This document shows positions 21,143-36,576 of a stretch of 64,000 nt of DNA, one piece after another (within the stretch, counting starts at the first letter, position 1; each line of letters starts with the position of its first letter). The position numbers and the translations under genes were made by a program. Source of the stretch: Halanaerobium praevalens DSM 2228. Lineage in GTDB: Bacteria; Bacillota; Halanaerobiia; Halanaerobiales; Halanaerobiaceae. The stretch is taken from assembly GCF_000165465.1 (NCBI RefSeq), contig NC_017455.1:496001-560000 (forward strand). The letters run 5' to 3'. Below the pieces are notes generated by a model, which was not told the DNA's origin, searched no databases, and worked only from the letters and a program-made list of their open reading frames with translations.

Positions 21143-21152
21143 GGTGGATAAA

Positions 21153-22292
21153 ATGACAAAGAATGTAAAAGAAAGAGTTGCCGGAGTTTTTAATGAGGTG
21201 GCAGCAGCGATGGAGACAGGTCAGTTTGGTCAAAAAAAGAAAATTGGCCTAACTTTACTTGATAGTGAACATGGAGTAGATGAACTAAAAAAAGCTGCTC
21301 AGCTGGCTGAAAACAAATATAATGATTTAGAAGTAGATTTAATAGGTTGTGAGGGAGACAAATGCAGCTGTTTAGCAGATGCTCATTCTATAATGGATCA
21401 AAAATTAGAAAATGAGGAGCTTGATGCTGCAGTTACCTTACATTATAACTTTCCTTTAGGAGTGTCTACAGTTGGTAGAGTTATTACTCCTGGGCAGGGA
21501 AAAGAAATGTTAATTGCTACTACCACAGGCACTACTGCAACTGATCGAGTTCCAGCAATGCTCAAAAATACAATTTATGGGATTGCAGCTGCTAAAGCTT
21601 TAGGGATTGAAAAACCAACAGTAGGAATTTTAAATGTAGAAGGGGCCAGACTGGTAGAAAAAAATCTGCAGAAGTTAAAGGTAAATGGTTATCAGTTTGA
21701 ATTTGCAACTTCTGTTAGAGCAGATGGTGGTTCAGTGATGAGAGGTAATGATCTGCTTTTAGGAACTCCCGATATTATGGTAACTGATACTCTGACTGGA
21801 AATATGCTGATGAAAGTATTTTCTTCCTTTAATACAGGTGGCCAGTACGAAGCAGTGGGTTATGGTTATGGACCAGGAGTTGGAGAAGATTATGATAAAT
21901 TAATCGGGATTATTTCTCGGGCTTCAGGTGCTCCAGTAATTGCTAATGCACTGAAATTTATGGCAGAGGTAGCTCAGGGTAATTTATTGGAGCTGACTAA
22001 AACTGAATTAAAAGCAGCTAAAAAAGCTGGTTTAAATGACTTAATTGCTGAGCTAAAAGCTAAAAATTCAGCTGTAAAAGAGGAAAAAGTTAAAAAACCA
22101 GAAAAGAAAGTAACAGATGAAGAAATCTCAGGTATAGATATCTTAGAAATTGAAGCTGCTAAAGAAAGTCTCTGGCAGCAGGATATTTATGCAGAAACAG
22201 GTATGGGTTGTACAGGACCTGTAATTTTAATTGCTGAAGCTGATGAAGCTGAAGCAAGAGAAAAACTGCAAAAGGCAGGTTTTATTGAATAA
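21153..22292 (+). CDS. grdD: glycine reductase component C alpha subunit GrdD
   Basis: A 379-residue PlsX/phosphotransacetylase-like subunit that phosphorolyses the acetyl thioester to acetyl phosphate. The start at 21153 has GAGGTGG immediately upstream; an earlier in-frame ATG (21096) lies inside grdC. A conserved Cys353 sits in 'ETGMGCTGPVIL' near the C terminus, where GrdD proteins hold a catalytic Cys, and another Cys pair lies in 'GDKCSC' near 62-67. A Lys/Glu-rich linker near 305-325 separates it from the body. It is the last grd gene. Confidence 0.93.
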   Translation: MTKNVKERVAGVFNEVAAAMETGQFGQKKKIGLTLLDSEHGVDELKKAAQLAENKYNDLEVDLIGCEGDKCSCLADAHSIMDQKLENEELDAAVTLHYNFPLGVSTVGRVITPGQGKEMLIATTTGTTATDRVPAMLKNTIYGIAAAKALGIEKPTVGILNVEGARLVEKNLQKLKVNGYQFEFATSVRADGGSVMRGNDLLLGTPDIMVTDTLTGNMLMKVFSSFNTGGQYEAVGYGYGPGVGEDYDKLIGIISRASGAPVIANALKFMAEVAQGNLLELTKTELKAAKKAGLNDLIAELKAKNSAVKEEKVKKPEKKVTDEEISGIDILEIEAAKESLWQQDIYAETGMGCTGPVILIAEADEAEAREKLQKAGFIE

Positions 22293-22325
22293 CTGATATA
22301 AATTTGAAATTGAAATTCAAAAGCT

Positions 22326-22396
22326 TAAATATCTACCAGCTCGAATAATTAAAAATTAAGCTACATTTATAGACTAAGAGCTGGTTTAGATATTTA
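22326..22396. repeat. long inverted repeat after grdD
   Basis: TAAATATCTACCAGCTC (22326-22342) matches the reverse complement of GAGCTGGTTTAGATATTTA (22378-22396), apart from a two-base TT bulge. The loop is 35 bases. No T-run follows, so this is not a standard terminator. It could be a processing site, a structured 3' end or a remnant of a small mobile element. Confidence 0.6.
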
Positions 22397-22445
22397 TTTA
22401 AGAAAAATATTCCAAAAATTCTTAAAATACTAAAAGCAAGTTGAT

Positions 22446-22474
22446 TTGAAAAAGAGAAGAAAATCCTTTATAAT
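22446..22474 (+). promoter_or_regulatory. promoter of the AGCS symporter gene
   Basis: TTGAAA (22446-22451), a 17-base spacer and TATAAT (22469-22474), about 60 bases upstream of the start codon. Confidence 0.75.
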
Positions 22475-22533
22475 GATTATTGTTATATATTTCACAATTT
22501 TTATAAAATAAAATATTAGAAAGGGGAAATATT

Positions 22534-23907
22534 ATGGCTTTTTTTCAGTATGTGAATGGTATTCTCTGGGGACCGGTAATGTTAGTCTTACTTTTGGGGA
22601 CAGGAGTTTTATTTACCTGGAAGCTAAGATTTATTCAAATTAGACGGCTTAAATCTGCTTTTAAAGAAACTTTTGCTAAAATGTTTGATAAATCAATTGG
22701 GGCTGATGCAGCTGGAATATCATCTTTTCAAGCTTTAGCCACAGCAGTTGCTGCTCAGGTCGGTACTGGTAACTTAGTTGGGGTTTCAACAGCTATTGCA
22801 GCTGGTGGACCTGGAGCTGTTTTTTGGATGTGGATTAGTGGAGTTTTTGGAATGGGTACAGTTTTTGCTGAAGCAGTTTTAGGACAGGAATTTAAAGAAA
22901 GTGTAGATGGAGAGATGACAGGGGGTCCTGCTTTTTATATTCGTAATGGTTTGGGAAGTAAACCTTTAGCAGCACTTTTTGCGGTTTCTATAGTTGTAGC
23001 TTTGGGAATAGTAGGAAATATGGTTCAATCTAATTCAATTGCTACAGCCATGTCTGAGGCATTTGGAATTTCTACTTTAGTAATTGGAATTATTATTTCT
23101 ATTCTAGTGGGGCTAGTTATTATTGGTGGTCTTAAAAGAATAGCTCATATTACAGAAATGGTAGTTCCATTTATGGCAGTAATGTATTTTTTAGCAAGTT
23201 TAGCTGTGATAATAATTAACTTTGAGAGTATTATTCCTTCTCTTAAAATGATTTTTTATGGAGCTTTTAATCCAACAGCTGCTACAGGTGGAGTTATTGG
23301 AGTTTCAATTAAACAAGCTTTCCGTTATGGTGTAGCTCGTGGTTTGTTTTCTAATGAAGCTGGAATGGGTTCTACTCCTCATGCTCATGCAGTAGCTAAA
23401 GTAAATCACCCAGCTCAACAGGGATTAGTTGCTATTTTTGGTGTTTTCTTTGATACTTTTGTGGTTTGTACTATGACAGCTTTAGTAATTATCACTAGTG
23501 GAGTTTTCAAGAGTGAAGCAATGCGGGGGGCAGCAATGACTCAAGCTGGTTTTGCTCAAGCTTTAGGTGGTATGGGAGAGAAGTTTGTGGCGATTGGACT
23601 TTTCTTTTTCGCTTTTACGACTATAATTAGTTGGTATTACTTTGGTGAGGTTAATATTAAGTACTTATTTGGTAAAGGAAAAGTCAAAATTTATCGCTGG
23701 GTTGTTGTAGGATGTGTTATTTTAGGAGCTGTTATGAAAGTACCTGTTATTTGGGAAATGGCTGATATGTTTAATGGAATTATGGTTATTCCTAACGTAG
23801 TAGCTTTACTGGGGATGGTATCACTTGTTAGTAAAATTTATGATGATTATGAATATAATTTCTTAGAAGGAAAAGAATCAGAATATGAAAATAAAGATTT
23901 AAAGTAA
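22534..23907 (+). CDS. AGCS-family Na+/alanine or glycine symporter
   Basis: A 457-residue membrane protein of the alanine-or-glycine:cation symporter family (AlsT/DagA). Visible hallmarks are 'GTGNLVGVSTAIAAGGPGAVFWMW' near 76-99, 'GPAFYI', 'SNEAGMGSTPHAHA' near 273-286 and about ten hydrophobic segments. It imports alanine or glycine with Na+ (or H+). Its position after the grd genes makes glycine supply to glycine reductase the likely role, though it has its own promoter. AAAGGGGA precedes the ATG. A bidirectional terminator follows. Confidence 0.9.
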   Translation: MAFFQYVNGILWGPVMLVLLLGTGVLFTWKLRFIQIRRLKSAFKETFAKMFDKSIGADAAGISSFQALATAVAAQVGTGNLVGVSTAIAAGGPGAVFWMWISGVFGMGTVFAEAVLGQEFKESVDGEMTGGPAFYIRNGLGSKPLAALFAVSIVVALGIVGNMVQSNSIATAMSEAFGISTLVIGIIISILVGLVIIGGLKRIAHITEMVVPFMAVMYFLASLAVIIINFESIIPSLKMIFYGAFNPTAATGGVIGVSIKQAFRYGVARGLFSNEAGMGSTPHAHAVAKVNHPAQQGLVAIFGVFFDTFVVCTMTALVIITSGVFKSEAMRGAAMTQAGFAQALGGMGEKFVAIGLFFFAFTTIISWYYFGEVNIKYLFGKGKVKIYRWVVVGCVILGAVMKVPVIWEMADMFNGIMVIPNVVALLGMVSLVSKIYDDYEYNFLEGKESEYENKDLK

Positions 23908-23984: not shown

Positions 23985-25622
23985 TTACTCAGCTACAGTA
24001 CCTTCACCGAATCCTACTTCTTCTAACCATTCTGTAGGATAGCCAACAGATTGAATTTTGTCTGGATAGTTAATATATCCGTCATTATATTTATAAATCA
24101 TTTCATCAGCAAATTTCCACCATTCATCTACAACTTTTTTTGCATTATTATAGCTGTAGTCAGTTAAGAATTCTTTTGTTCTTTCTGGGCCATGTGAATC
24201 ATAGATTTCTAGAGCTGCATTATCAATAGCAGGCTGCATGGCAAAGAATTTATTTTCATATTTTTGCTGCATTGCTTGAATATCTTTTATCATATATGAA
24301 TATTTTAAGTCAGCCCAATTTGAGACGAAGTCAAAGGCCCACCAAGCAGATGATCTGTCAAATTTATCTCTTCTGCCTGAAGTAAAGGCTTCTGGTAGTT
24401 CTCTGGTACCACTGTAGATTGGAAGATAAACAGTAGAGTGAGGTGCATCTTCACCAAACCAGAGTATTGATTTAATGGGAGCAGGCATTGAACTACGTGC
24501 CTGACCAACAAAACTATAAGAACAGCGGAACATTGAAATAGCTCTTTCCCAATCCATATCTTTTTTATCTTCTGGTTTAACAGAATTAGGAGTAGGATAT
24601 CTATTTGGAGTACCAAAAGGGCCAGCTGCTAAGCCTTCAGTTAAGTCAAATCTGGTACCCTCATAATGATCACGCTTAATTGCCATTAAATCTCGAGCAG
24701 AAACTTTTTCATCAGGTTTAACTGAGAAAGGATAACGTTTTGCTTTAGGATCAAAATTCTGTGATGGAGCTAAAATAGATAAAACTCTCCATTCACGGCG
24801 TTTTTGATAATATTCTGCTCCATAAGGATTAGGATTATATGCTTCACAGAATAAGAATTCTTCTGCTGGATCCCACCAGCCCATATTTTCAGCAAAAGAT
24901 TTCACATTTTTAGAAGCCATTGCTTTTTCTGGATTATCTAGATCAAGTGTATCAATTCTACTTCTATTAGCAACTACACTAACATGGCCATCAGGCACTC
25001 TTTTAGCTGCCCAAATAGCACCAGGCTCTTCAGTTCCAGGAGACCAGATTGGACCTGGTCCAACGATTTCGAACATCCAGGCTTCTTCACCATCAATAAC
25101 AGTTAAACTTTCTCCACCATCAGCATAACCATATTTTTCAGCTAGTTCTCCCATAATTTTAACAGCTTCTCTAGCTGTTTTAGCTCTTTGAAGAGCAAGT
25201 CTTTCTAGTTCTTCAATCATTAAAATTGCATCTGTATTTTTTAATTCACTGCGACCACTAAAAGTTGCTTCTCCAATCATAACTCCGTGCTCGTTCATAA
25301 AAGGATAAGCAATATGGAAATAAGTATATGTTTCCGTTGCTTGGGGAATTTCTCCTAATTCAGTTACATTATAACCAGGTATTCCGTCATGACAGCGGGA
25401 ACTATAAACAGTAGTCATTGCATCAGCTTCAAACTTTTCTCCTTCAACAATTTGAATTCGAGCATCATAATTACCATCACAAGTGTGAGTTGTCATAACT
25501 GAGCCATCAACAGAGGCATCTTTACCAACCATAATAGAAGTACAGGCATTAACAGCAGATACTCCAACTAAACAGACTAGTAGAAAGGTTAGGGTCAGAG
25601 ATAGTAGTTTTTTATTAAACAT
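23985..25622 (-). CDS. exported C69-family dipeptidase (paralogue 1)
   Basis: Peptidase family C69 (PepD type): N-terminal-nucleophile hydrolases that use the amino-terminal Cys after propeptide removal. The 545-residue protein begins with a signal peptide (about residues 1-26) directly followed by Cys27 in 'CTSIMVGKDASVDGS', so cleavage of the signal would expose the nucleophile. Later blocks include 'WMFEIVGPGPIW' and 'MFRCSYSFVGQ'. AAGGGGG precedes the start. It is the last gene of the operon and is homologous over its length to the upstream neighbour. Substrate: probably extracellular dipeptides or short peptides. Confidence 0.85.
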   Translation of the reverse strand: MFNKKLLSLTLTFLLVCLVGVSAVNACTSIMVGKDASVDGSVMTTHTCDGNYDARIQIVEGEKFEADAMTTVYSSRCHDGIPGYNVTELGEIPQATETYTYFHIAYPFMNEHGVMIGEATFSGRSELKNTDAILMIEELERLALQRAKTAREAVKIMGELAEKYGYADGGESLTVIDGEEAWMFEIVGPGPIWSPGTEEPGAIWAAKRVPDGHVSVVANRSRIDTLDLDNPEKAMASKNVKSFAENMGWWDPAEEFLFCEAYNPNPYGAEYYQKRREWRVLSILAPSQNFDPKAKRYPFSVKPDEKVSARDLMAIKRDHYEGTRFDLTEGLAAGPFGTPNRYPTPNSVKPEDKKDMDWERAISMFRCSYSFVGQARSSMPAPIKSILWFGEDAPHSTVYLPIYSGTRELPEAFTSGRRDKFDRSSAWWAFDFVSNWADLKYSYMIKDIQAMQQKYENKFFAMQPAIDNAALEIYDSHGPERTKEFLTDYSYNNAKKVVDEWWKFADEMIYKYNDGYINYPDKIQSVGYPTEWLEEVGFGEGTVAE

Positions 25623-25635
25623 TTAATTTGCCCCC

Positions 25636-27198
25636 TTAATTATTATTAAGCTGGTAATAAAGCTCATCTCCAAGTTTCCAGTAACGATTTTCAGTCCAGT
25701 GCATTAAAGATTTAGTGTGATTTGTTAATAATTCTTTAACAGCTTTTTCATCTTGAGTTATATCAAGAATAACAGCCTTTTCTTCAATTTCTTTTTGTAA
25801 TTCAAACATATGATTTTGCATTGGTTTTAAAACAGAATCAACTTCAGGTTTTAAATCCCCATAACGCATATTAACAAAGTCATCTACGCGAGCAAAAGCC
25901 CACCAAGAAGAATCTCTATCAAATTTATCTCTGTTTAGAGTTTTCCAGGAAGTAGGTACAGCTTCAACACCAACATTCATTGGCACAAAAGGACTATTTT
26001 CTGGGTTATCAAGTCCAAACCAGATTACTCCTCCAATTTCATCAGGAAGCCAATTTCTTGATTGGGAAACAAAGAAATAAGAACAGTAATAACGAGCAAT
26101 TGGACGATAATATTCAAGATCTAATAATTGACGAGCTGCTCCATCTGCCTGTGGAGTAGCATAAACACTTTTTTTCATTTCTCCACTTTCGTCTTCATAA
26201 TACCAATTTTCATTGTCAGCCATATCATAAGGAGAATTTTCAGAAGTATCTCTAAACATTGCTATAACATCTTGAGCAGATACTTTTTTATCAGGCTTAA
26301 TAGAAAATGGATATTCTGCTGCTTTGTTATAATTCCAATTTTTAGATGGTGCCATTTCACTATAAACTCTCCAAAGTCTAAGACTAGTATCATCTTTTAC
26401 ATCACCATATACTTCATTCCAATAAAATTCTTCATTACTCTCAGAATCATAAATCCCAAGTTCTTCAGCTACCGCAATATAGTTATCAGAAACCATCATA
26501 TCATCTGCATCTGGATCTATTTTTCTGATTCTACTAAAATTAGGAACTACTGTTACATGGTTATCAGGTACTTTTTTAGCTGCCCAGACAGCACCAGGTT
26601 TTCCACTTTCAGGTGTCCATAAAGGACCAACTCCAAAAATTTCAAAAACCCAAACTTCATTTTTATCAGCAACTGTTAAGCATTCTCCTAAATAACAAGA
26701 TTCTTTGTATCCATATTTTTCAGCAAGTTTTCCCATTAATTTAATTGCTTCTCGAGCTGTTTTAGTTCTTTGGAGGGCAAAAATTTCTAACTGTTCAATA
26801 GTCATAATTGCTTCTTCACTATTAGTAGTTTCTCTTGCTCCGCCTAATGTAGTTTCACCAATAATTAATTGATGTTCATTTGCATAAGGATAAGCACCAT
26901 GAAAATATTTATAAGTATGTTCAGCTTGAGGTATTTCTCCGAGTTTAACTAAATCCATATGATCACCGTAAACAATATTTTCGTAAACTGGAGCCATTGT
27001 TCCAGACTCATGATCTTGAGCTGGAATAATTTGAATTCTAGAATCATATCTACCATCAACAGTGTGAGAAGTTATAACAGAACCATCAGTTGAAGCATCT
27101 TTACCAACAACAATATCAGTACAAGCTAAAGCAGAGCCACTAAGAACTAAAGTGATAATTAACAACAAGATTGTAGAAGTAGCAATTTTTCTTTTCAT
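25636..27198 (-). CDS. exported C69-family dipeptidase (paralogue 2)
   Basis: A 520-residue paralogue of the downstream gene. It has a signal peptide (about 1-25) and the candidate nucleophile Cys26 in 'CTDIVVGKDASTDGS'. Shared blocks are 'HTYKYFHGAYPYANEH', 'QRTKTAREAIKLMGKLAEKYGY' and 'IKPDKKVSAQDV'. AAAGGGGA lies upstream of the ATG and only 13 bases separate it from paralogue 1. Two diverged copies side by side suggest different peptide specificities. The Cys at +1 of the exported form raises the alternative that it is lipidated, but the -2 and -3 residues fit a lipobox poorly. Confidence 0.85.
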   Translation of the reverse strand: MKRKIATSTILLLIITLVLSGSALACTDIVVGKDASTDGSVITSHTVDGRYDSRIQIIPAQDHESGTMAPVYENIVYGDHMDLVKLGEIPQAEHTYKYFHGAYPYANEHQLIIGETTLGGARETTNSEEAIMTIEQLEIFALQRTKTAREAIKLMGKLAEKYGYKESCYLGECLTVADKNEVWVFEIFGVGPLWTPESGKPGAVWAAKKVPDNHVTVVPNFSRIRKIDPDADDMMVSDNYIAVAEELGIYDSESNEEFYWNEVYGDVKDDTSLRLWRVYSEMAPSKNWNYNKAAEYPFSIKPDKKVSAQDVIAMFRDTSENSPYDMADNENWYYEDESGEMKKSVYATPQADGAARQLLDLEYYRPIARYYCSYFFVSQSRNWLPDEIGGVIWFGLDNPENSPFVPMNVGVEAVPTSWKTLNRDKFDRDSSWWAFARVDDFVNMRYGDLKPEVDSVLKPMQNHMFELQKEIEEKAVILDITQDEKAVKELLTNHTKSLMHWTENRYWKLGDELYYQLNNN

Positions 27199-27223: not shown

Positions 27224-28396
27224 TTATTCATAATAAACACGATCTGAATCCATATTAGCTGGATTTTTAAAATAATGCCCAACCCCATTTTCTATAATTT
27301 CTGCATATTTAGGCACATTTTTAATTTCTATCTCCTTTCCGGGGTTCATTTGGTTCCAGATCTGAGCAACCATTAGTGTAGTAGAACAGTGTCTGCCAAC
27401 TCGAACTTCAATTGGCCATCCGTCTTCATCAATTGTTTCATATAAAAGTCCAAATTCTCCTGCTCTTTGAACAAATGGATCTTGGCCTCTTAAAAGTAGA
27501 TCTTCATCTGTTACTCCACGAACTCGATCTAAAAACGGTTCTGGAGTTTCGAAAAGCAGTGAAACAGCATCTGAATGATCTCCTACCTCTCTGTGAGAGA
27601 GTCCATGTAAAGATTTAGGAGAAAATTCCATACTAATTGGCTCTTCAAATTCCATATCAGTTAAAGTCATTGAAGACATAGCAGCAATATTTCGACCAGA
27701 TTCATGAGCAACAATTGTACTAATTACTGGATATTCTAATTCTGCTTCATGATAATCAATGAAGAGATCAACCTTTTCTTTTTCAATAACTTGCATAAAA
27801 GCATAGTTTACTTGTTCAGTAAATGAACCATCTTTTTTGCCAGGCCAGGTTCGATTAAAGTTTCGAATATCCATATAAGCTAACATCTGTTTGCTGGGAT
27901 AATGAACATATACTTCAGGATCAGGCCAAGAATCTAGGGGGTTAGTCCATCTGTCTCCCATTCTATATTTTTTGGCTCCCCAATCTGTTTCTATAGTATA
28001 AAACTGTGGGTAAGCATCGCCAGGTCTAGTTACTGTCGAAGCACTCCTGTTAGCCCTAATAGCAAGAATTAATTTTCCTTTTTCTAAAATAGCATTTTCA
28101 GCAAATATTTCTGCACTAAGATTCGATGCTGGTTCTTCTGGGTGTGATCCACCTATGGCAAAGAAAGTAGCACCTGGTTTTCCACTATCTAAAATATAAA
28201 TATTACAATCCGCTACTGTACCTTTTAAAGGTTGGTAATAATCACCTAATGTATTGACTTGAGTAACAGATTTGCTTGTAACTACTGCTTCTTTGTGATT
28301 TCTGTGTTCAGTAAAAGCTTGACCTGAGATAACTAAAGCACTAATAACTATCACAGCGGTTATAACTTTGACTAAGATTAGATTTTTGCTAGACAT
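27224..28396 (-). CDS. exported M14/aspartoacylase-like zinc hydrolase
   Basis: A 390-residue protein with an N-terminal hydrophobic signal or anchor (about 8-28). Zinc-ligand motifs typical of M14/succinylglutamate-desuccinylase proteins are visible: H85-P-E-E88 in 'GGSHPEEPAS', 'NFNRTWPG' near 179-186 (the N-R-x-x-P substrate-carboxylate loop) and H216 in 'FIDYHEAE'. Such enzymes remove amino acids or acyl groups from peptide-like substrates. GAGGTG precedes the ATG. It sits between a permease and two dipeptidases in one operon, suggesting a shared extracellular peptide or polyamide substrate. Confidence 0.7.
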   Translation of the reverse strand: MSSKNLILVKVITAVIVISALVISGQAFTEHRNHKEAVVTSKSVTQVNTLGDYYQPLKGTVADCNIYILDSGKPGATFFAIGGSHPEEPASNLSAEIFAENAILEKGKLILAIRANRSASTVTRPGDAYPQFYTIETDWGAKKYRMGDRWTNPLDSWPDPEVYVHYPSKQMLAYMDIRNFNRTWPGKKDGSFTEQVNYAFMQVIEKEKVDLFIDYHEAELEYPVISTIVAHESGRNIAAMSSMTLTDMEFEEPISMEFSPKSLHGLSHREVGDHSDAVSLLFETPEPFLDRVRGVTDEDLLLRGQDPFVQRAGEFGLLYETIDEDGWPIEVRVGRHCSTTLMVAQIWNQMNPGKEIEIKNVPKYAEIIENGVGHYFKNPANMDSDRVYYE

Positions 28397-28591: not shown

Positions 28592-29881
28592 TTATCCTCC
28601 AACTAAAAATGACAATTGATTACTAAAAACAAGAAAAACAGTACATAAAGCCAAAATAAAGCCCATTGGAATTAAACAGGTTTTAAGAAAATCTTTATAA
28701 TATCTTCCCTGATAATTTAATTCAATGACTGTTGCTCGGCCTACTACAGCTGTTGGTGGTAAAATATCTCCTAAAGGCCACATTACTGCCATAGCAGAAA
28801 GAGTTATAACTGGATTAAAGCCTTTCATATTAAATAAGAAAATTAAGGGTACTCCAATTAAAGGTGCTACAGCATATTGTAATAATCCTTCTGAGACTGG
28901 TAAGATAAGAAACAATGAAGCAAATAAAAACCAGACTGGCAGAGTTACTATAGCAAGTGAGATTAAACCTCTAGCCCCACTTAAAGCCATAATTTGAATT
29001 AAAATACCAACAACAATCATAATTCCGACTAGGGGAATTAAAGATCTAATTGTTTTTCCCGCAATATTAAGAATATTTAATTTTTTAGGACTTAAAATAA
29101 ACATTACTGAAGCAGCAATTAAAAACATTAACGGCAGTCCTAAGATCGGCATTTTAAAAGGAAAGAGTCTTCCTGCAACAATTAAGATAATTAAGATCAA
29201 AAATGGAGTTCCAACTCTAAACCAATTCATTTCTGCTGGTGGTTCTGGTAGTTCAGCTAGAATTTTTTCTAGTTCTGGATTTTCTCCCTTTGATCCCAGA
29301 AAAAACATTGTAAATAAAGCCCCAATACTTGTAATTATAAATAAAGGCTGCATAAAACCAACATAGGGCATATTTGCTCCGGCTGCAGCCATCATAGCCC
29401 AAAGATTAATGGGAGGAGCTGCAGCACTCATTGAAGCACAAACGAAAATAATTGCAGCAGTTTTGGTTTCAGAAATTCCCATATAAACTAAAACAGTCCC
29501 AACAAGTGTACCAACAGTTAAAACTGTTGCTGCCCCAGCCCCAGTTAGAGCTCCGGGAATCATTAAGATAAAGGTTAGAAATAAAAGAGTTAAATAGCGG
29601 TGCTCATGGAACCTGATTATAATTTTTCTAACCATAAAGACTATACCACCTGATTCTTTAACAAGATTAATAAAGAGAGTAGCAGTAATAAATATTAGTG
29701 AAACATCATAATATGTAAATGCACCCTCAACTAAATGTCTAACCGGCAGACCACCGGTATGATAAATAGCAGCAGCAAGAGCTGACAAAAGCATAGCCAG
29801 CTCGGTTCCTAGTTTAAAGTAGTTGCCGATTGCAAAAGTTACTGCTATTATGATGAGTATAATTCCAGCATGTAAAAACAT
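28592..29881 (-). CDS. TRAP/DctM-like (ion-transporter superfamily) permease
   Basis: A 429-residue protein with about eleven hydrophobic segments, a repeated 'G(A)ATVLTVGT' region near 118-126 and 'MWPLGDILPPTAVVGRA' in the last quarter, as in large permeases of TRAP and related transporters. The ATG at 29881 lies 6 bases after GAGGTG; the in-frame GTG at 29890 is within that site. No DctP solute-binding protein accompanies it. Instead the operon begins with an exported DUF6305 protein, which could act as the extracytoplasmic binding partner. Substrate unknown; amino acid or acyl-amino acid uptake is inferred from the neighbours. Confidence 0.68.
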   Translation of the reverse strand: MFLHAGIILIIIAVTFAIGNYFKLGTELAMLLSALAAAIYHTGGLPVRHLVEGAFTYYDVSLIFITATLFINLVKESGGIVFMVRKIIIRFHEHRYLTLLFLTFILMIPGALTGAGAATVLTVGTLVGTVLVYMGISETKTAAIIFVCASMSAAAPPINLWAMMAAAGANMPYVGFMQPLFIITSIGALFTMFFLGSKGENPELEKILAELPEPPAEMNWFRVGTPFLILIILIVAGRLFPFKMPILGLPLMFLIAASVMFILSPKKLNILNIAGKTIRSLIPLVGIMIVVGILIQIMALSGARGLISLAIVTLPVWFLFASLFLILPVSEGLLQYAVAPLIGVPLIFLFNMKGFNPVITLSAMAVMWPLGDILPPTAVVGRATVIELNYQGRYYKDFLKTCLIPMGFILALCTVFLVFSNQLSFLVGG

Positions 29882-29914
29882 TAAATACACCTCATTTCAG
29901 TAACAGTTAAACTT

Positions 29915-30478
29915 TTATTTGATATCAAATAATTCTTGAAAAGCTTTTCCCATTTCATTATTTTTATCAAAAAATATTGCTGGGATATTTAATTCTTCAC
30001 TTTTTTTACTAAAAAAGTCATCTTGATTACTTGAATCTTTAATAATTAGAGCATCACTTTGGGGCATAACAATTTCGATTGATTGAGCATCATTTTCATC
30101 TGCTCGTCTTGACATACCTTCAATATGAGCACCTAAGACCTGAAGCCCATTTTCTTTGGCAGTTTCAATTAAATTGTCAATTCTTTTAGCTTCTTGTTTC
30201 ATATTTGTGCCCGCAGCACCCATGCCTTTACCACTAGTACCCATGGTGACAATTAGAGTTTTGTAATTATTACCTTTTAAACCTTCGGCAGTTAAAAGAT
30301 CTTTTTGCTCAGCTTTAATTCCAACTTGTTGAGCAATCATTTTAACCATTAATGCACCAGGACTTTGACCACAGGTTGTGACTACAACTGGCTCTTCAAA
30401 GACCGGCATTGCAGCAGCACCAACAAATGTTAAAGTAAATAAGGTGATGACTGTTAAAAATAAGATTTTCTTAATCAT
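29915..30478 (-). CDS. exported DUF6305 protein
   Basis: A 187-residue protein with a signal peptide (about 1-22) and a single alpha/beta domain. Ordered motifs are 'VTTCGQSPGALMVKM', 'TLIVTMGTSGKGMGAAG', 'RRADENDAQSIEIVMPQSD' and 'FFSKKSEELNIPA'. The same motifs occur in the same order in the first 175 residues of the fusion protein at 32619-33827. The Rossmann-like pattern and export suggest a binding protein rather than an enzyme. The ribosome binding site GGAGG precedes the ATG. It heads the operon that continues into the permease. Identification as DUF6305 is from memory; function is unknown. Confidence 0.65.
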   Translation of the reverse strand: MIKKILFLTVITLFTLTFVGAAAMPVFEEPVVVTTCGQSPGALMVKMIAQQVGIKAEQKDLLTAEGLKGNNYKTLIVTMGTSGKGMGAAGTNMKQEAKRIDNLIETAKENGLQVLGAHIEGMSRRADENDAQSIEIVMPQSDALIIKDSSNQDDFFSKKSEELNIPAIFFDKNNEMGKAFQELFDIK

Positions 30479-30582
30479 AATTTTACCTCCTTTTTTTAAT
30501 TAGATATTTTCTTCACATAACTATATTTCCACTATTGTTGAAAGATTCCTACTTTTTCTCTTATTTCTCTTAAAAAATAAAA

Positions 30583-30626
30583 ACCACCAATTTAAATTAG
30601 CTTTTTTAAAAGCCTAAATTGGTGGT
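30583..30626 (-). terminator. terminator after the response regulator gene
   Basis: On the minus strand ACCACCAATTTA and TAAATTGGTGGT form a perfect 12-pair stem followed by TTTTTATTTTTT. It ends the pgs/two-component operon upstream of the DUF6305 operon. Confidence 0.88.
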
Positions 30627-30638
30627 GAAAAACTTAGG

Positions 30639-31268
30639 TTAAATTTTACTAGTTAGTTGATAATGATGGACAGGACGACCGATTTGACCATAATTTAATT
30701 TTACTTTTGCTAAGTTTTCATCATTTAAATAATTCAAATAACGATGGACTGTTTGGTAGGCTAAATTAGTTCCTGCTGAAATTTGGCTAATAGTTTCAGC
30801 TTTTTCTTTTTCTTTTAAATAATCAAAAATAATAGAAAGAGTTTTAAGAGTCATTCCTTTTGGGATATCTAAATCCTTTATAGCGGAATCTTTATGTTCA
30901 AGTTGGGGACTATAACTTAGGTGGAGCTTAATTCTAGAAATTAAATCAGCAGTTTTTATTGGCTTATTGGCAAAATCATCTGCTCCAGCTTCTAAGAATT
31001 TTTCAGCTAGATCTAAAGATTCATCAACTGTTAAGACTAAAATAGTAATTTCTTCATTAATTTTTCTAATCTTTTTTACTAATTTTAGTCCATTAATATC
31101 AGGCATATGATAATCAACTAATAGAAGATCAAATTTATTATTTTTAATTTGTTTTAAGGCATCTAAACCACTAGCTGTAGTTTTTAAATTTAGATCTGCT
31201 ACTTCAGCAATGGCTTCTAAGGTAAATAGAATATCTTGTTGGTCATCGACTGCTAATATTTTTTTCAT
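30639..31268 (-). CDS. response regulator, CitB/DctR-like
   Basis: A 209-residue two-component response regulator. The receiver domain (1-115) has the acidic pair D8-D9, phospho-acceptor D52 in 'LLVDYHMPD', T80 and K102. The C-terminal part (about 138-205) looks like a winged helix similar to the CitB/DcuR group ('ISQISAGTNLAYQTVHRYLNYL' near 161-182), which often controls carboxylate or amino-acid uptake. The start overlaps the kinase gene by 26 bases, with GAGGTGA inside the kinase coding region, showing tight coupling. Likely targets are the adjacent operons; no operator could be identified. Confidence 0.85.
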   Translation of the reverse strand: MKKILAVDDQQDILFTLEAIAEVADLNLKTTASGLDALKQIKNNKFDLLLVDYHMPDINGLKLVKKIRKINEEITILVLTVDESLDLAEKFLEAGADDFANKPIKTADLISRIKLHLSYSPQLEHKDSAIKDLDIPKGMTLKTLSIIFDYLKEKEKAETISQISAGTNLAYQTVHRYLNYLNDENLAKVKLNYGQIGRPVHHYQLTSKI

Positions 31269-32628
31269 TTTCTGTCACCTCTGGTAATAATATTTTAGCT
31301 TTAGTTCCTTGATTTAATTTACTTTCTATTCTAATTTCTCCATTGTGACTTGCTATCACATCTTTAACGAAATGGAGTCCTAATCCAGTATTTTCTATTC
31401 CTGTTGTATAACCTATTTTCCAAATATTATTAAGTTTGTCAGCTGGAATTCCCTGGCCATTATCCGTTATTGTTATTTTGATTAATTTATGTAATTTTTT
31501 TGCCCTAATTTTAATTTTCCCATTCTTTAAATCAATAGCTTTTAGGGCATTATCAATTAAATTAATTAAAGCTCTGGATAACCTAACTTTATTTGCTTTT
31601 AGCATTAAATTATCATTATATTCAAAAGATAGGTGGTCATCAATTTCTTCTAAAGCAAGTTGGATTTTAAGAAAATTAAATAATTCAGCTATTGATATCT
31701 TTCTTTTTTTATCATCATAAAGTATTTCTGAGATCATCTGGCCCATTTTATCAGCTGATTCGCTTATTTTTTCTGTATATTTATGTATTTTTTTATCTTC
31801 AACTTTTAAGCCTATTACCCCACTTAAACCCTGAATTGTAACAAGGGGAGTTTTTAAATCATGGACTAAATGTTTGATCTCACTAAAATATCTAGATTTA
31901 ACTGCTTCTAATTCTAATTCTCGTATCTTTTTTTCTTTTTCTTTACTTTCAGCCATTAACTTTAAATTATTATAATAATAAATAACTACTCTGGTTAAAA
32001 TTAGAGCATTAATCATAATTATGATTGAAAAAGTAAAACCAAAAAAATTCATTATATATTCGGCCCCTATAAATTCTGTTACTTCCCTAATTGAAACTAT
32101 AATTTCTCCTCTGCCAAAACCATAATCACTTAAAAACGGAATAATATCAAGCCAATCAATACTAAATAAGAAAAGAGAAATGATAATTGTTTTAATAAAA
32201 ATATGATGAATATCTTTAGTCATTAAATGGAGAATAAAAATGATTAAAATTGTTAGATAAGAAGGGCCAGCAAAAACAAAATCAATATTATAAATTAAAG
32301 TAATTAATTGATAAATTATGGGGATAATTATTAAAGTAATAAAAAAAGTGAAATTTTTAAAAGAACTTAGATTTTCAATGCTTTCTGCTAAGATAAAAGC
32401 TCCTAAATAAATAGGAAGATGTCTAAGAGTATTTAAAATAACTAATTTAGCAGAAACTAAAAGTAGTAAACCACTGTCTTGGCTTGCTATACTTTGATAT
32501 AGCTGGTGTAAAAGGTTGAATTGTGGTTTTTTAGTAAAAAAAGGTAAAACAAGGGCTCCTATAATTATAATTAAAGCTGCTAAAAATTTATTTTTGTCAA
32601 CTTTGCTAAAATCAAGTTCTAAGGCCAT
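31243..32628 (-). CDS. membrane sensor histidine kinase
   Basis: A 461-residue kinase with about six hydrophobic segments in the first 220 residues, a short coiled linker (228-248), then a HisKA-type dimerisation domain with phospho-acceptor His256 in 'HLVHDLKTP'. The HATPase_c domain has 'LINLIDNALKAI' (N box), 'DNGQGIP' (G1) and 'TGLGLHFV' (G2). There is no large extracellular domain, so sensing is likely within the membrane or through a partner such as DUF6305. It overlaps the preceding fusion gene by 10 bases and the response regulator by 26. Confidence 0.87.
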   Translation of the reverse strand: MALELDFSKVDKNKFLAALIIIIGALVLPFFTKKPQFNLLHQLYQSIASQDSGLLLLVSAKLVILNTLRHLPIYLGAFILAESIENLSSFKNFTFFITLIIIPIIYQLITLIYNIDFVFAGPSYLTILIIFILHLMTKDIHHIFIKTIIISLFLFSIDWLDIIPFLSDYGFGRGEIIVSIREVTEFIGAEYIMNFFGFTFSIIIMINALILTRVVIYYYNNLKLMAESKEKEKKIRELELEAVKSRYFSEIKHLVHDLKTPLVTIQGLSGVIGLKVEDKKIHKYTEKISESADKMGQMISEILYDDKKRKISIAELFNFLKIQLALEEIDDHLSFEYNDNLMLKANKVRLSRALINLIDNALKAIDLKNGKIKIRAKKLHKLIKITITDNGQGIPADKLNNIWKIGYTTGIENTGLGLHFVKDVIASHNGEIRIESKLNQGTKAKILLPEVTENEKNISSR

Positions 32629-33827
32629 ACTAGTTCAACTCCATTTGCTTTTAAAAATAACTCGATTAAGTTGAGTTGATAATTAATTCTTTTTGCTAAA
32701 GTTAATTTTTGACAGGTTTCTAGGGTAAAAGCTGGAATTTTCAAATGTTTACCAGTTGCCTGAGTTAAACTACCAGTTTTGGGAGGGCTAATTAAGCTAA
32801 ATTTTTCAATTTGCTTTTCTATGTCCTGATTAATTAACTCTACTACTTGTGCTCCTTGCCAAACTGATTGAGCAGTTGGATAAGCAATTATGGACTGACC
32901 CACATAATTTTTATTTAAACGATTAAAATTTTCAGATTCATGTAAATCAAGTAAAAGTTGAGGAGCAATTTTTTTAATTAAATCAAAGATAGCTGCAGCC
33001 CTTATTTGAGTATTAGTTATTTTTTTTGAGGGAGGAAAAGATCTATTAAGTTTTTCTGATTGAGGATAATTTCTTTGATTTTTATTACAGGCTTGGGGAT
33101 TTGCTCGTGGAATTACAACTAAACGACCTCCTTTGACCTCTGCTTTTTTAAGTTTTAAAGCAGCTAATTGAGATGCTATTTCATCACCATGAATACCAGC
33201 ATTTATTAAAATAGTTTTTGCTTTAGCTTGTCCATTAATATAGTAGGCAACATTTTTGGATTCTCCCTGAAAAAGTTTAGCAATTATTGGTTTTATTTGA
33301 GATAAATTTTCTGCTATAGCCAAAGGAATATCATTTTTTTGAGCTTTTTTTGAAAAATAATTATCAAAATTACTTTTTTTAGCGATAATTAAATAATCAG
33401 CAGCAGGAGCTACAAGTTCAAGTAATTGATCAGATTTTTGATCTCTACGATTTTTGCCACCTAGATGGGTTAAAATTATAAACTTGTTCTCCTGTTTTGC
33501 CTTTTTTATTAAAGCTCTACATCTTTTGAGTTCAGCTTCAAAATCAATTCCAGCTGCACTTATTCCTTTACAACTGTGACCGACTGCAATAATTAAAGTA
33601 GGATAATTTTCAATAGACTCAGCTTTTAATAAGGAATGATAGGTAAAATGAATATTTTGATTTTCTAGAACAACTTTGATCAGTAAACCATCAGGATTTT
33701 GACCAAGAGAGGTAACAGCTACAGGTTGAGCAGGATAATATTCTATATTTTTTGCTGAGCTAAAAAGATTAAAGCTCAAAAGAATGAGCAGACAGATTAC
33801 AATAACAATCCAAAAACTAGATTTCAT
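32619..33827 (-). CDS. DUF6305-like domain fused to M14-type zinc hydrolase
   Basis: A 402-residue protein with an N-terminal signal anchor (about 5-24). Residues 30-187 repeat the motif order of the exported DUF6305 protein ('LGQNPDGLLIK', 'VGHSCKGISAAG', 'YFSKKAQKNDIPL'). Residues 195-402 form an M14/AstE-like hydrolase: H213-G-D-E216, 'NRSFP' at 261-265, H296 in 'LLDLHES', and a late 'TLETCQ' with the presumed catalytic Glu. The fusion ties a possible binding module to an amidohydrolase acting outside the membrane. It overlaps pgsW by 11 bases, so its product probably acts on the polymer made by PgsB-PgsC. Confidence 0.72.
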   Translation of the reverse strand: MKSSFWIVIVICLLILLSFNLFSSAKNIEYYPAQPVAVTSLGQNPDGLLIKVVLENQNIHFTYHSLLKAESIENYPTLIIAVGHSCKGISAAGIDFEAELKRCRALIKKAKQENKFIILTHLGGKNRRDQKSDQLLELVAPAADYLIIAKKSNFDNYFSKKAQKNDIPLAIAENLSQIKPIIAKLFQGESKNVAYYINGQAKAKTILINAGIHGDEIASQLAALKLKKAEVKGGRLVVIPRANPQACNKNQRNYPQSEKLNRSFPPSKKITNTQIRAAAIFDLIKKIAPQLLLDLHESENFNRLNKNYVGQSIIAYPTAQSVWQGAQVVELINQDIEKQIEKFSLISPPKTGSLTQATGKHLKIPAFTLETCQKLTLAKRINYQLNLIELFLKANGVELVWP

Positions 33828-34935
33828 TCTTTATCCTCCTAGATTGATTATATTTAGTCCAAAATTTTGCTAAAAGCAAGGGTATAATTATAATTAATAA
33901 TAAGCTTGAAATTAGATGTTTATTATAATTGATAATATAATATACATCAGCTTGACCTGGTTTAGGTAGTGGAACAGGATCAATTTGAATTCCATTTTCT
34001 CTAGCCAAATTCTCGATATTCAATAAATGAATAACTGGAATGTTTTGACTAAGAAAATATGATAAAAGACCATTTTTGGCATATTCAGTATTCAATTTAC
34101 CTGGAATAGTTAGACCATTTTCAAACTTTACTGAAGCAGAAGTGCTGCCAAAGTTAGCTGAGGCTCCTCCAATATTAATAAAAGTTTTAATCTGATTAGT
34201 TTGAGAATTTTTCTTTAAAATATCTATTCTTTTTTGGATACTGGCCTCTAAATCTTCTTCATAAATTAAAGGGATAGATTCTTTTTCAGCTATTTTAAAA
34301 AAGGTGTTTTTGTTATCACTAAAAAAGAGATTATCTGCTCTGTCATTATCTCCCCCTAAGGAAAGAGCTCTAATCTTATAGCTTAATATTTGCTCTTTTC
34401 TGAGCTCTTTTAGCATTTCTATAAAACTGAAATTAGGGATATTAGCTCCATACATTGAAGATCCAAGTGAATAAATTAATTCCACTTTTAAATCCATTGT
34501 TTCACTTGCCGAAAGTACAGATAAAATTAAGCCGGGAAAAGAGCCGCTGGCTCCAATTGCTATTTTGTCACCTGCTTTTAAATTAAGTTTTTTAAAATAG
34601 TCAACCATTAAGGCAGCAAAGTCTGTATTAGTAGCTGTTCTCTTAGCTTTTAAATTACCAAGAGTAGTTGTAAGTTTAGTATATTCTTGACCAATCAAAG
34701 CAGTTTTATTAGGATCTAATTTAGTATTAACTTTTAAATTTCTAGCTTTTTTTGCCTGGTAAATAACTTTTTGGGCTGTCAGTACTTTTTGGGCAGCTGT
34801 GATTTGAGTTTTAAAAGCTGGATTTTCAGTCTTAGAGCTGCTAAAAAAGATAATAATTAAAGCAAAAATTGCTAGTAGAGCTGAAATAATAATTATTTTA
34901 ATATTAATTTTGGCTTTAACCCAGTTTGTAAACAT
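33817..34935 (-). CDS. pgsW: poly-gamma-glutamate system protein (PgsW-like)
   Basis: A 372-residue protein with one hydrophobic segment near 13-30 and another near 341-360, placing the middle outside the membrane. The core contains 'GDKIAIGASGSFPGLILSVL' near 138-157, 'SLGSSMYGANIP' and 'FINIGGASANFGS'. I recall this as the third-gene family accompanying short PgsB-PgsC operons. AAAGGAG precedes the ATG. Its biochemical role is not established. It may replace CapA/PgsA, which is absent here. The symbol is tentative. Confidence 0.65.
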   Translation of the reverse strand: MFTNWVKAKINIKIIIISALLAIFALIIIFFSSSKTENPAFKTQITAAQKVLTAQKVIYQAKKARNLKVNTKLDPNKTALIGQEYTKLTTTLGNLKAKRTATNTDFAALMVDYFKKLNLKAGDKIAIGASGSFPGLILSVLSASETMDLKVELIYSLGSSMYGANIPNFSFIEMLKELRKEQILSYKIRALSLGGDNDRADNLFFSDNKNTFFKIAEKESIPLIYEEDLEASIQKRIDILKKNSQTNQIKTFINIGGASANFGSTSASVKFENGLTIPGKLNTEYAKNGLLSYFLSQNIPVIHLLNIENLARENGIQIDPVPLPKPGQADVYYIINYNKHLISSLLLIIIIPLLLAKFWTKYNQSRRIKNEI

Positions 34936-34949
34936 TAAATTAAGCTCCT

Positions 34950-35378
34950 TTAGCTAAATAAAAGCATTAATAATCTTAAAAAGATTGAAAGAAAAATTAA
35001 AGCAGAAAGAGTAGCTGTAATTCCTTGTCTTAACATATCATTTGCAATTAGTCCTGGAATAATATAACCAATTACTCTTAAATCTTGTTCGATTGGAAAA
35101 AAATTTATAAAAATTGAACGGTAAAACCAGCCAATTAAATAACCGAGAATAACACAGGCTGTAAAACGGCGGCGACTATACATTATAATATAATTAGCTA
35201 AAAACTTCACAATCAAAAAAGTTAAAACTGCCGTAATAATAGTGGCTAAAATCCGGGAGGGTTCCTGCCAGAAAAAAGCCAAATAACCAGGTACAATAAT
35301 TCCTCCTGTATAAAATCCTGTTAGTTCTGTAAAAATAAAACTTAAAAGAATCCCAATTCCAACTGATTCAATTAACAT
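34950..35378 (-). CDS. pgsC: poly-gamma-glutamate synthesis membrane protein PgsC/CapC
   Basis: A 142-residue membrane protein with about five hydrophobic segments, close to the usual ~149 residues of CapC. 'GFYTGGIIVPGYLAFF' near 21-36 and 'SRRRFTACVILGYLIGW' near 68-84 are CapC-like. PgsC forms the membrane synthase/export complex with PgsB. GGAG lies 9 bases before the ATG, inside the end of pgsB, and the genes overlap by 11 bases. Confidence 0.85.
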   Translation of the reverse strand: MLIESVGIGILLSFIFTELTGFYTGGIIVPGYLAFFWQEPSRILATIITAVLTFLIVKFLANYIIMYSRRRFTACVILGYLIGWFYRSIFINFFPIEQDLRVIGYIIPGLIANDMLRQGITATLSALIFLSIFLRLLMLLFS

Positions 35379-36576
35379 TTAATTCAACTCCAAATTTTTC
35401 AAAATAAGCTGCGATTATTTCTCCATCTCCATGAATATTACCACAAGCAAAAATTATCAAATTTCTTTTTGGTTCTAAATTATTAAAAAAATTACTTAAC
35501 TTTTTAAATTTATTTAAATCAAAAAAGAATAAATTTAATTTTGAAATATTTTGTTTAGAATTTAAGTTCTTTTTTAATAATCTTTGTTGTCTAAATTTTA
35601 AGGCACCACTTAATAAAAATCCATCAAACCTATTTTTAAAGCTGAGAAAATTAATAAATTCTTTTAATCTAAATGCTCGATCACTGCGGTGGTTAATCAA
35701 AGCATAAAGAGCTGGTTTTTCAACTGGAAATTGCTCTAATTTTTTAGTTATTTTCTGCCAAATTATTTCGGTTGAATCACGATCATTAGCAGCAAAAGCA
35801 TTAATGAAAATAATATTTCTACCCTTATTTTGATAAAGATAAGTTTTTAAGCTACCGGGATCAGCAGTAACTGAGTACATACCTGCTAAAGCTGTTTTTT
35901 TATTTATCTTAAAAGAAGAGGCTACTTTTAAAGCACAGGCAATATTTTCTTTAAAAACAGTTTTTTTAAAGGGCTTCAGTTCTGCCTGACTAATCTTAAT
36001 ATCAGAAATTGTGCTGTAAAGATTATTTCTTTTTTTAGCTTCTTTTTTAATTAAAGATTCTAAATTCTTTTCAGCAGAAATAACATGGGCAGACTGTGGG
36101 AGGCTTAAACAGATTGTTTGGGCAATTTCTTTAAGATTACTCCCCATTTTATCTAAATGATCATTTCTAATATTAGTAATTATTGTATAGTCAGCTTTTA
36201 AAAAAAGGTGTTCACTACTCCATTGAATTTCTGGAGAAATAGCCATACATTCAATTACTAAAACATCGACTTTTTCTTTAACTGCTAATTGAACTATTCT
36301 TTTTTGCTCTGAAATACTGGGTGGACCATGACGAAGTAAATCTTTTTCACTTCCATCAGGATAGATTATTTTAGCAGCAGTTCCAGTCGTTTTAGCTAAG
36401 ACCTGAAGCCCATCTGCTCTTAAAGCAGCAGCAGTTAATCTAGTTGTAGAAGATTTACCCCGAATACCATTAACATGGACTATTTTGGGGATTTTATTTA
36501 AATTTTTTTTATGATTTTTCTTTTCCCAAATTCCAGTTATAATTAAAATTATTGTAATTAAAGTTATAACTTGCAT
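35368..36576 (-). CDS. pgsB: poly-gamma-glutamate synthase PgsB/CapB
   Basis: ATP-dependent amide ligase of the Mur-ligase superfamily that polymerises glutamate through gamma-carboxyl bonds at the membrane. The 402-residue protein has an N-terminal hydrophobic segment (3-16), the P-loop 'GIRGKSSTTRLTAAALR' from 37, 'RHGPPSISEQKRIVQLA' and 'VIECMAISPE' (acidic Mg-binding region), and 'TNIRNDHLDKMG', all as in CapB. GAAAGGGA precedes the ATG. It is the first gene of a six-gene operon with its own promoter at 36633-36661. The actual monomer (D/L-Glu or another acidic amino acid) cannot be read from sequence. Confidence 0.88.
   Translation of the reverse strand: MQVITLITIILIITGIWEKKNHKKNLNKIPKIVHVNGIRGKSSTTRLTAAALRADGLQVLAKTTGTAAKIIYPDGSEKDLLRHGPPSISEQKRIVQLAVKEKVDVLVIECMAISPEIQWSSEHLFLKADYTIITNIRNDHLDKMGSNLKEIAQTICLSLPQSAHVISAEKNLESLIKKEAKKRNNLYSTISDIKISQAELKPFKKTVFKENIACALKVASSFKINKKTALAGMYSVTADPGSLKTYLYQNKGRNIIFINAFAANDRDSTEIIWQKITKKLEQFPVEKPALYALINHRSDRAFRLKEFINFLSFKNRFDGFLLSGALKFRQQRLLKKNLNSKQNISKLNLFFFDLNKFKKLSNFFNNLEPKRNLIIFACGNIHGDGEIIAAYFEKFGVELNVN

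Follow-up and report, generated by a model that had tools for sequence, protein, structure and literature searches.

The domain of unknown function DUF6305 occurs twice in the window, the 64,000-base stretch analysed here (bases 496001-560000 of the 2,309,262-base genome of Halanaerobium praevalens DSM 2228, contig NC_017455.1), once as a free exported protein and once fused to an M14-like zinc hydrolase, and these are exactly the two DUF6305 genes of the genome. Both belong to a locus in which pgsB, pgsC and pgsW, genes of poly-gamma-glutamate (PGA) synthesis, are followed by the DUF6305-M14 fusion, a histidine kinase, a response regulator, the free DUF6305 gene, a DctM-like permease, an M14-like gene and two C69 peptidase genes, all on the minus strand. 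The features of the locus are as follows (positions within the window):

35368..36576, minus strand: PgsB poly-gamma-glutamate synthase (TIGR04012, E 2.3e-107)
34950..35378, minus strand: PgsC (TIGR04011, E 4.6e-37)
33817..34935, minus strand: PgsW-type poly-gamma-glutamate system protein (TIGR04332, titled gamma_Glu_sys, E 2.7e-114)
32619..33827, minus strand: exported DUF6305-M14 fusion of 402 aa (PF19823, E 6.3e-52; PF24827, E 1.8e-13; zinc motifs HGDE and DLHE)
31243..32628, minus strand: histidine kinase with a hydrophobic N-terminus of five segments (HisKA/HATPase; hydrophobic segments)
30639..31268, minus strand: response regulator with winged-helix output (Response_reg, HTH_45)
30583..30626, minus strand: terminator-like hairpin separating the free DUF6305 unit from the pgs/kinase operon (fold z-score -4.8)
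29915..30478, minus strand: free exported DUF6305 protein of 187 aa (PF19823, E 1.4e-52; AlphaFold2 pLDDT 92.2)
28592..29890, minus strand: DctM-like permease of 432 aa, 24 bp past the free DUF6305 gene (family profile against DctM Pfam and PDB 9pym)
27224..28396, minus strand: M14-like hydrolase of AstE/DoeB type with an N-terminal hydrophobic segment (weak Pfam/NCBIfam matches; conserved zinc site)
25636..27198, minus strand: exported C69 peptidase (PF03577, E 1.5e-53)
23985..25622, minus strand: second exported C69 peptidase (PF03577, E 4.4e-72)

The PgsB and PgsC products, with 359 and 127.3 bits, exceed the equivalog cut-offs of 222.7 and 96.45 bits and can thus be assigned to PGA synthesis, while the product of the third gene is one which we take to be PgsW. 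In the open literature searched, DUF6305 is not named, and nothing was found which pairs PgsW with poly-gamma-glutamate, or poly-gamma-glutamate with Halanaerobium; papers found to pair poly-gamma-glutamate with TRAP transporters are, judged by title, on other topics. The locus shares PgsB, PgsC and PgsW-type genes with known pgs/cap operons for PGA synthesis, but adds to them the DUF6305-M14 fusion, the kinase pair and an apparent uptake cassette.

A preliminary description of the window had proposed that the free protein and the first part of the fusion contain one and the same domain, and both are in fact members of PF19823, scoring 177.8 and 175.7 bits where the curated cut-off is 25 bits. 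The domain occupies residues 28-184 of the free copy (about 29927-30397), which begins with a hydrophobic segment, and residues 34-186 of the fusion (about 33270-33728), where it is followed at residues 203-377 (about 32697-33221) by AstE_AspA_cat, the AstE/AspA-type M14-like zinc hydrolase domain. Non-homology of the two regions, named at the outset as the outcome that would overturn the proposal, is not what was found, since BLASTP aligns them with 37% identity over 163 positions (E 4e-31). The motifs on which the proposal had been built are likewise present in the free and fused copies, respectively (GQSPGAL and GQNPDGL; GTSGKGMGAAG and GHSCKGISAAG; SRRAD and NRRDQ; FFSKK and YFSKK; NIP and NDIP), and 13 of 13 family-conserved positions checked are identical between them.

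The free copy heads a unit of its own, as had been suggested, because the strong hairpin in front of it, followed by a U-rich tract, separates it from the response regulator gene; a simple scan for terminator patterns did not list this hairpin. That unit does contain a transporter gene, but the preliminary description had overlooked its further genes, namely the M14-like gene, which starts 195 bp downstream of the permease and encodes a signal-like N-terminus, and the two C69 genes, whose products are 41% identical (BLASTP). M14 is thus a partner at both places in the window, as an operon gene for the free copy and as an attached domain in the fusion, so that the contrast originally drawn, in which the domain would serve a permease in one case and an M14 hydrolase in the other, fails. 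The partners were also undercounted: to the permease and the hydrolase a third has to be added, the histidine kinase, which together with its regulator lies between the two window copies and which, in one entire clade, is the sole partner of DUF6305.

For the structural placement of the domain, a redundancy cut at 92% and the manual removal of L166 and L176 left 72 of the 83 copies of a second sequence set (described below), and the alignment used had 73 rows, the first two being the window copies and 71 coming from other loci. With these 73 sequences the AlphaFold2 model of the free copy reached a mean pLDDT (predicted local distance difference) of 92.2 and a pTM (predicted template-modelling score) of 0.87, and it describes an alternating alpha/beta, Rossmann-like domain. 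By sequence no solved relative was found, the best PDB match (alanine racemase, E 0.055) being taken as chance. The best Foldseek matches were weak and mixed, with a template-modelling score by query of at most 0.47 among the matches listed; the top VIA match was UDP-GlcNAc 2-epimerase (Z 9.8, 3.0 A over 132 residues), and GDSL/PatB proteins and glycosyltransferases came next at Z of about 8-8.5. On the model, these matches speak of a common fold and not of function. Over 34 diverse rows, G36, Q37, E95 and R98 are invariant and G79, S81, G84, G120, R123, R124, D152 and F155 nearly so. Taking strand limits of 30-34, 73-77, 112-117 and 142-146 from the model, the groups G36-Q37, G79-S81-K83-G84 (K83 being listed with its conserved neighbours), G120-R123-R124 and D152-F155 follow strands 1, 3, 4 and 5, and E95 and R98 lie in the helix after strand 3. 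Strand ends are the usual position of the ligand site in Rossmann-like folds, and the conserved residues of the model are arranged as for one such site, the several Arg and Lys among them fitting an acidic ligand. PgsW, too, was modelled with confidence as a Rossmann-like domain (pLDDT 88.8), and no clear relative of it was seen in the PDB. A distant homology between DUF6305 and PgsW, considered on our impression of a similar order of motifs, was not supported by profile comparison (probability 1.2 and 0.5) nor by the PgsW model, for which there was no Foldseek match at E 0.001 and VIA Z did not exceed 7.3.

The partnership was followed through a phylum set of 398 genomes, searched with PF19823, in which neighbouring genes were labelled with profiles built from the window proteins and neighbourhoods ended at contig ends. 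The DUF6305 neighbour profile contained the tails of fusions and gave one M14 gene (in L217) a wrong label; its total of 82 agrees with the Pfam match count. These 82 genes belong to 45 of the 398 genomes, with a maximum of nine per genome, and directly downstream on the same strand they are followed by the permease (39), the kinase (24), M14 (10), gamma-glutamyltranspeptidase (GGT; 2), an oxoprolinase-like gene (1) or another gene (6). Within 8 kb the permease accompanies 52 of the 82, and M14 is then found as well in every case (52 of 52), pgs genes in 19. A second set comes from named contigs, with 80 retained out of 411 relatives; it was found with an alignment of the permease type and is therefore biased against the kinase class. 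It has 83 DUF6305 genes, and for 75 of them the permease lies no more than 8 kb away, accompanied by M14 in 64 cases and by pgs genes in 34. The same cassette appears on contigs of Thermotogota, Atribacterota, Aminicenantes, Gemmatimonadota and Bacteroidota, and the full series pgsB-pgsC-pgsW-DUF6305-permease-M14-C69 is co-directional in L150, L158 (Longimicrobiales), L173 (Bacteroidota) and L211 (Gemmatimonadota).

The co-occurrence of whole genomes agrees with this picture. The permease family is found by profile search in 23 of the 398 genomes, and 22 of the 23 have DUF6305 (p 1e-22), the Fisher p values for co-occurrence ranging in all from 1e-21 to 1e-31 and not being true probabilities, as the genomes are related. 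PgsW passes its cut-off in 24 genomes, of which 22 have DUF6305 and the identical 22 the permease; the two others (G218 and G267) have contig breaks near the locus, and in G218 two contigs start with the GGT and the M14 gene, at the place where one would look for DUF6305 and the permease. Both the proposed export, through the hydrophobic N-termini, and the proposed link with PGA, through this co-occurrence, are supported in this way. The kinase N-terminus is present in 37 genomes, 32 of them with DUF6305, and in three of the five without it (G218, G267, G374) the relevant genes are near contig ends. Only three of the 45 DUF6305 genomes match neither permease nor kinase, and two of these three have a kinase adjoining DUF6305 whose N-terminus has diverged. 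Another 20 genomes combine the kinase with DUF6305 in the absence of the permease, and PgsW is found in none of them.

Some further observations were made on these loci. A contig labelled Thorarchaeota (L139) has the order DUF6305-permease-M14-C69 and groups with Thermotogota, by transfer or by a binning error. In Aminicenantes a protein of about 200 aa, in most cases with two N-terminal hydrophobic segments, is encoded directly before the permease (e.g. L154:12896-13504), DUF6305 being further upstream, beyond an opposite-strand gene of about 690 aa; as a DUF6305-like protein it was rejected (hhalign probability 0.3, from 24 rows chosen by length which included some unrelated frames). A 584-aa DUF6305-permease frame (L106:7585-9339) was not used as Rosetta-stone evidence, because some 40 residues of mid-DUF6305 are missing and it may be a decayed fusion or gene, or an assembly fault. 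Just past the C69 genes of the window, at 21096-23907, lie a PF02504 (FA_synthesis) protein and a sodium:alanine symporter.

As regards the enzymes, M14-like hydrolases of the AstE/AspA kind carry an HxxE motif and a downstream His as zinc ligands, together with a catalytic Glu. The window proteins have these residues, as HPEE and DYHE in the unfused protein and HGDE and DLHE in the fused one, and H85, E88, H216 and E283 are invariant across a 61-row alignment of the unfused family. GGT and oxoprolinase families act on gamma-glutamyl or 5-oxoproline compounds; GGT is within 8 kb of 28 of the 82 DUF6305 genes, any GGT being present in 140 of the 398 genomes, and by Pfam it adjoins DUF6305 or the permease in L049, L052, L040 and L057. 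That C69 and GGT replace one another was considered but is not claimed: among the 52 permease-linked genes of the phylum set 23 had C69 only, 19 GGT only, 6 both and 4 neither (p 1.5e-5), but in the 75 of the second set, with 27 C69 only, no GGT only, 5 both and 43 neither, the direction was the opposite (p 0.01), the loci being related and non-independent in both sets. A precedent for M14-like enzymes shortening PGA is PghP, which is a carboxypeptidase-A-like zinc enzyme cutting gamma-PGA into tri- to pentapeptides, PghP and YndL being gamma-PGA hydrolases of this kind which cut gamma-glutamyl bonds (PMC4497714). The M14-like proteins of the window, whose activity is predicted, match AstE/AspA, M99 or DoeB profiles and not the PghP family in the Pfam and NCBIfam scans. 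The permease class is tied to PGA synthesis genes by the co-occurrence given above.

The permease invites comparison with tripartite ATP-independent periplasmic (TRAP) transporters, made up of DctP or TAXI, DctQ and DctM. Its family profile matches the TRAP DctMQ structure 9pym (E 7.5e-4), and 13 of 18 family members match the DctM Pfam at E 0.01 or better, the window permease itself giving 18.7 bits, below the cut-off of 23.8. As in TRAP systems, a DctM-like permease is preceded directly by the gene of an exported protein, but here that protein consists of one small Rossmann-like domain, for which the PDB offers no clear relatives by sequence, and neither a DctQ gene nor a DctQ-DctM fusion is seen in the window. 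The 24-bp gap between the free DUF6305 gene and the permease and the 195-bp gap between permease and M14 leave no room for DctQ, nor has the permease an N-terminal extension; the rest of the genome was not searched. No protein of the cassette could be recognised as a binding protein of the DctP or TAXI kind, DUF6305 exceeding the cut-off for PF19823 only. In PMC5812351 the small subunit DctQ, separate or fused, is described as essential in TRAP transporters. The system was not filed as TRAP, because no DctQ was found in the operon and no DctP or TAXI in the cassette, although its mode of action may be TRAP-like.

The kinase-linked copies form one clade (support 100/99 in a 96-row tree). Of 22 DUF6305 genes with a kinase and no permease within 8 kb, 19 adjoin genes of oligopeptide ATP-binding cassette (ABC) transporters. 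Two-component sensing assisted by a binding protein exists as a kind of system, and these loci resemble it in that the gene of an exported domain adjoins that of a kinase, its putative partner, whose N-terminus is for the most part embedded in the membrane; they differ from it in that the exported protein does not have the two-lobed build of a binding protein. In L218 and L219 a kinase and regulator of the DUF6305 type stand beside peptide ABC genes with no DUF6305, the upstream gene in L218 encoding a MASE9-HD protein. The idea that a lipoprotein anchor distinguishes the kinase class was dropped, a loose lipobox pattern matching 5 of the 21 kinase-linked copies and 66 of the 144 others.

In the same tree the fused copies, three in number, cluster together (100/100), and the cluster joins five free copies labelled M14-linked, and in four of those five loci (not L083) DUF6305 is flanked by two M14 genes. 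Fusion has thus happened locally, within a single family (in this sample in three genera, that of the source genome and two related ones), and it probably joined genes which were already neighbours. The free window copy falls amid permease-linked ones from Thermotogota and Atribacterota, and its position in the tree suggests transfer between phyla.

The explanation which we favour, with about even confidence, is that DUF6305 would be a ligand-binding module outside the cytoplasm, made of one Rossmann-like domain and working with partners of three kinds, and that in its main class it would serve to recycle PGA fragments. There it would work with the DctM-like permease and with exported M14-like and C69 or GGT hydrolases: the hydrolases would shorten the PGA chain, and DUF6305 would bind gamma-glutamyl fragments outside the cell through Arg and Lys at its strand ends and pass them on to the permease, by a presumed direct contact and in a presumed inward direction. 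In the second class it would be the sensing partner, again by contact, of a membrane histidine kinase which has no large sensor domain of its own, and in the fused copy, encoded next to the pgs synthase genes, it would keep the chain in place for the attached M14 hydrolase. Homology, signals for export in the form of hydrophobic N-termini, a conserved site and a close gene partnership are what the sequences show, while the ligand, the contacts with permease or kinase and the direction of transport are inferences. Several points weigh against this explanation. M14, pgs, C69 or GGT genes lie within 8 kb of none of the 22 kinase-only genes, and since the class lacks these genes the single ligand for the whole family, as had been proposed for both window copies, is unlikely. 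Two divergent copies (L097:8902-12699 and L099) adjoin oxoprolinase- or hydantoinase-like genes and have neither permease nor kinase, two kinase genomes (G003 and G155) are true exceptions in lacking DUF6305, and in G331 a permease fragment of 95 aa at the end of a contig is without an adjoining DUF6305. The binding proteins of known TRAP systems are larger and two-lobed, and none is among the 50 fold matches listed for the DUF6305 model, a list which is unable to exclude one. The junction of the fused group with its free relatives, finally, lacks full support (98/64). As a separate observation, L097 also has a gene of histone-deacetylase type, and L097 and L099 are possibly a 5-oxoproline variant.

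It is unlikely, in our judgement, that DUF6305 is mainly a sensor, binding a peptide or gamma-glutamyl signal and controlling the kinase, with its place before the permease reflecting co-regulation and not transport; such a role would suit the 16-row clade linked to the kinase only, the 32 of 37 genomes in which the kinase N-terminus tracks DUF6305 and the kinase pair between the window copies, but 13 of the 45 DUF6305 genomes have no match to that N-terminus at 1e-6 (two of them, G004 and G051, with an adjoining kinase whose N-terminus has diverged), and permease and M14 are constant neighbours in the main class. The strict conservation of polar residues where the strands end, as well as the SGNH look-alikes of the PatB/GDSL type (VIA Z 8.2-8.5, root-mean-square deviation 4.0-4.4 over 134-147 residues), could also point to DUF6305 being itself an exported enzyme on gamma-glutamyl chains, for example transferase- or esterase-like. 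We consider this quite improbable, since no His or Cys is conserved in the 34 diverse rows, so that the SGNH triad, whose catalytic residues are Ser, Asp and His, is lacking, and the cassette already has two or three hydrolases. Very improbable, lastly, is a polymer-docking module, comparable to a carbohydrate-binding module, which would keep the hydrolases on the PGA layer and have no part in transport: the M14 fusion in three genera and the gene order M14-DUF6305-M14 in several loci would be accounted for, but the permease directly follows DUF6305 in nearly half of the phylum-set genes, and the kinase class has DUF6305 without any PGA genes.

Going further than the binding and recycling role which we favour, DUF6305 and its permease could constitute a new class of binding-protein-dependent secondary transporter, in which a single-domain, Rossmann-like binder replaces the two-lobed one, DctQ is absent and the system is dedicated to gamma-glutamyl fragments of the cell's own PGA, the polymer being an extracellular store which is made, sensed and taken back; this is put forward tentatively, as a possibility with more doubt than confidence attached to it. 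If true, DUF6305 and an unnamed permease family would gain a testable role, a binding protein of one small domain would be an unusual partner for a DctM-like transporter, and many bacteria would hold the synthesis, hydrolysis, sensing and uptake of PGA in one locus.

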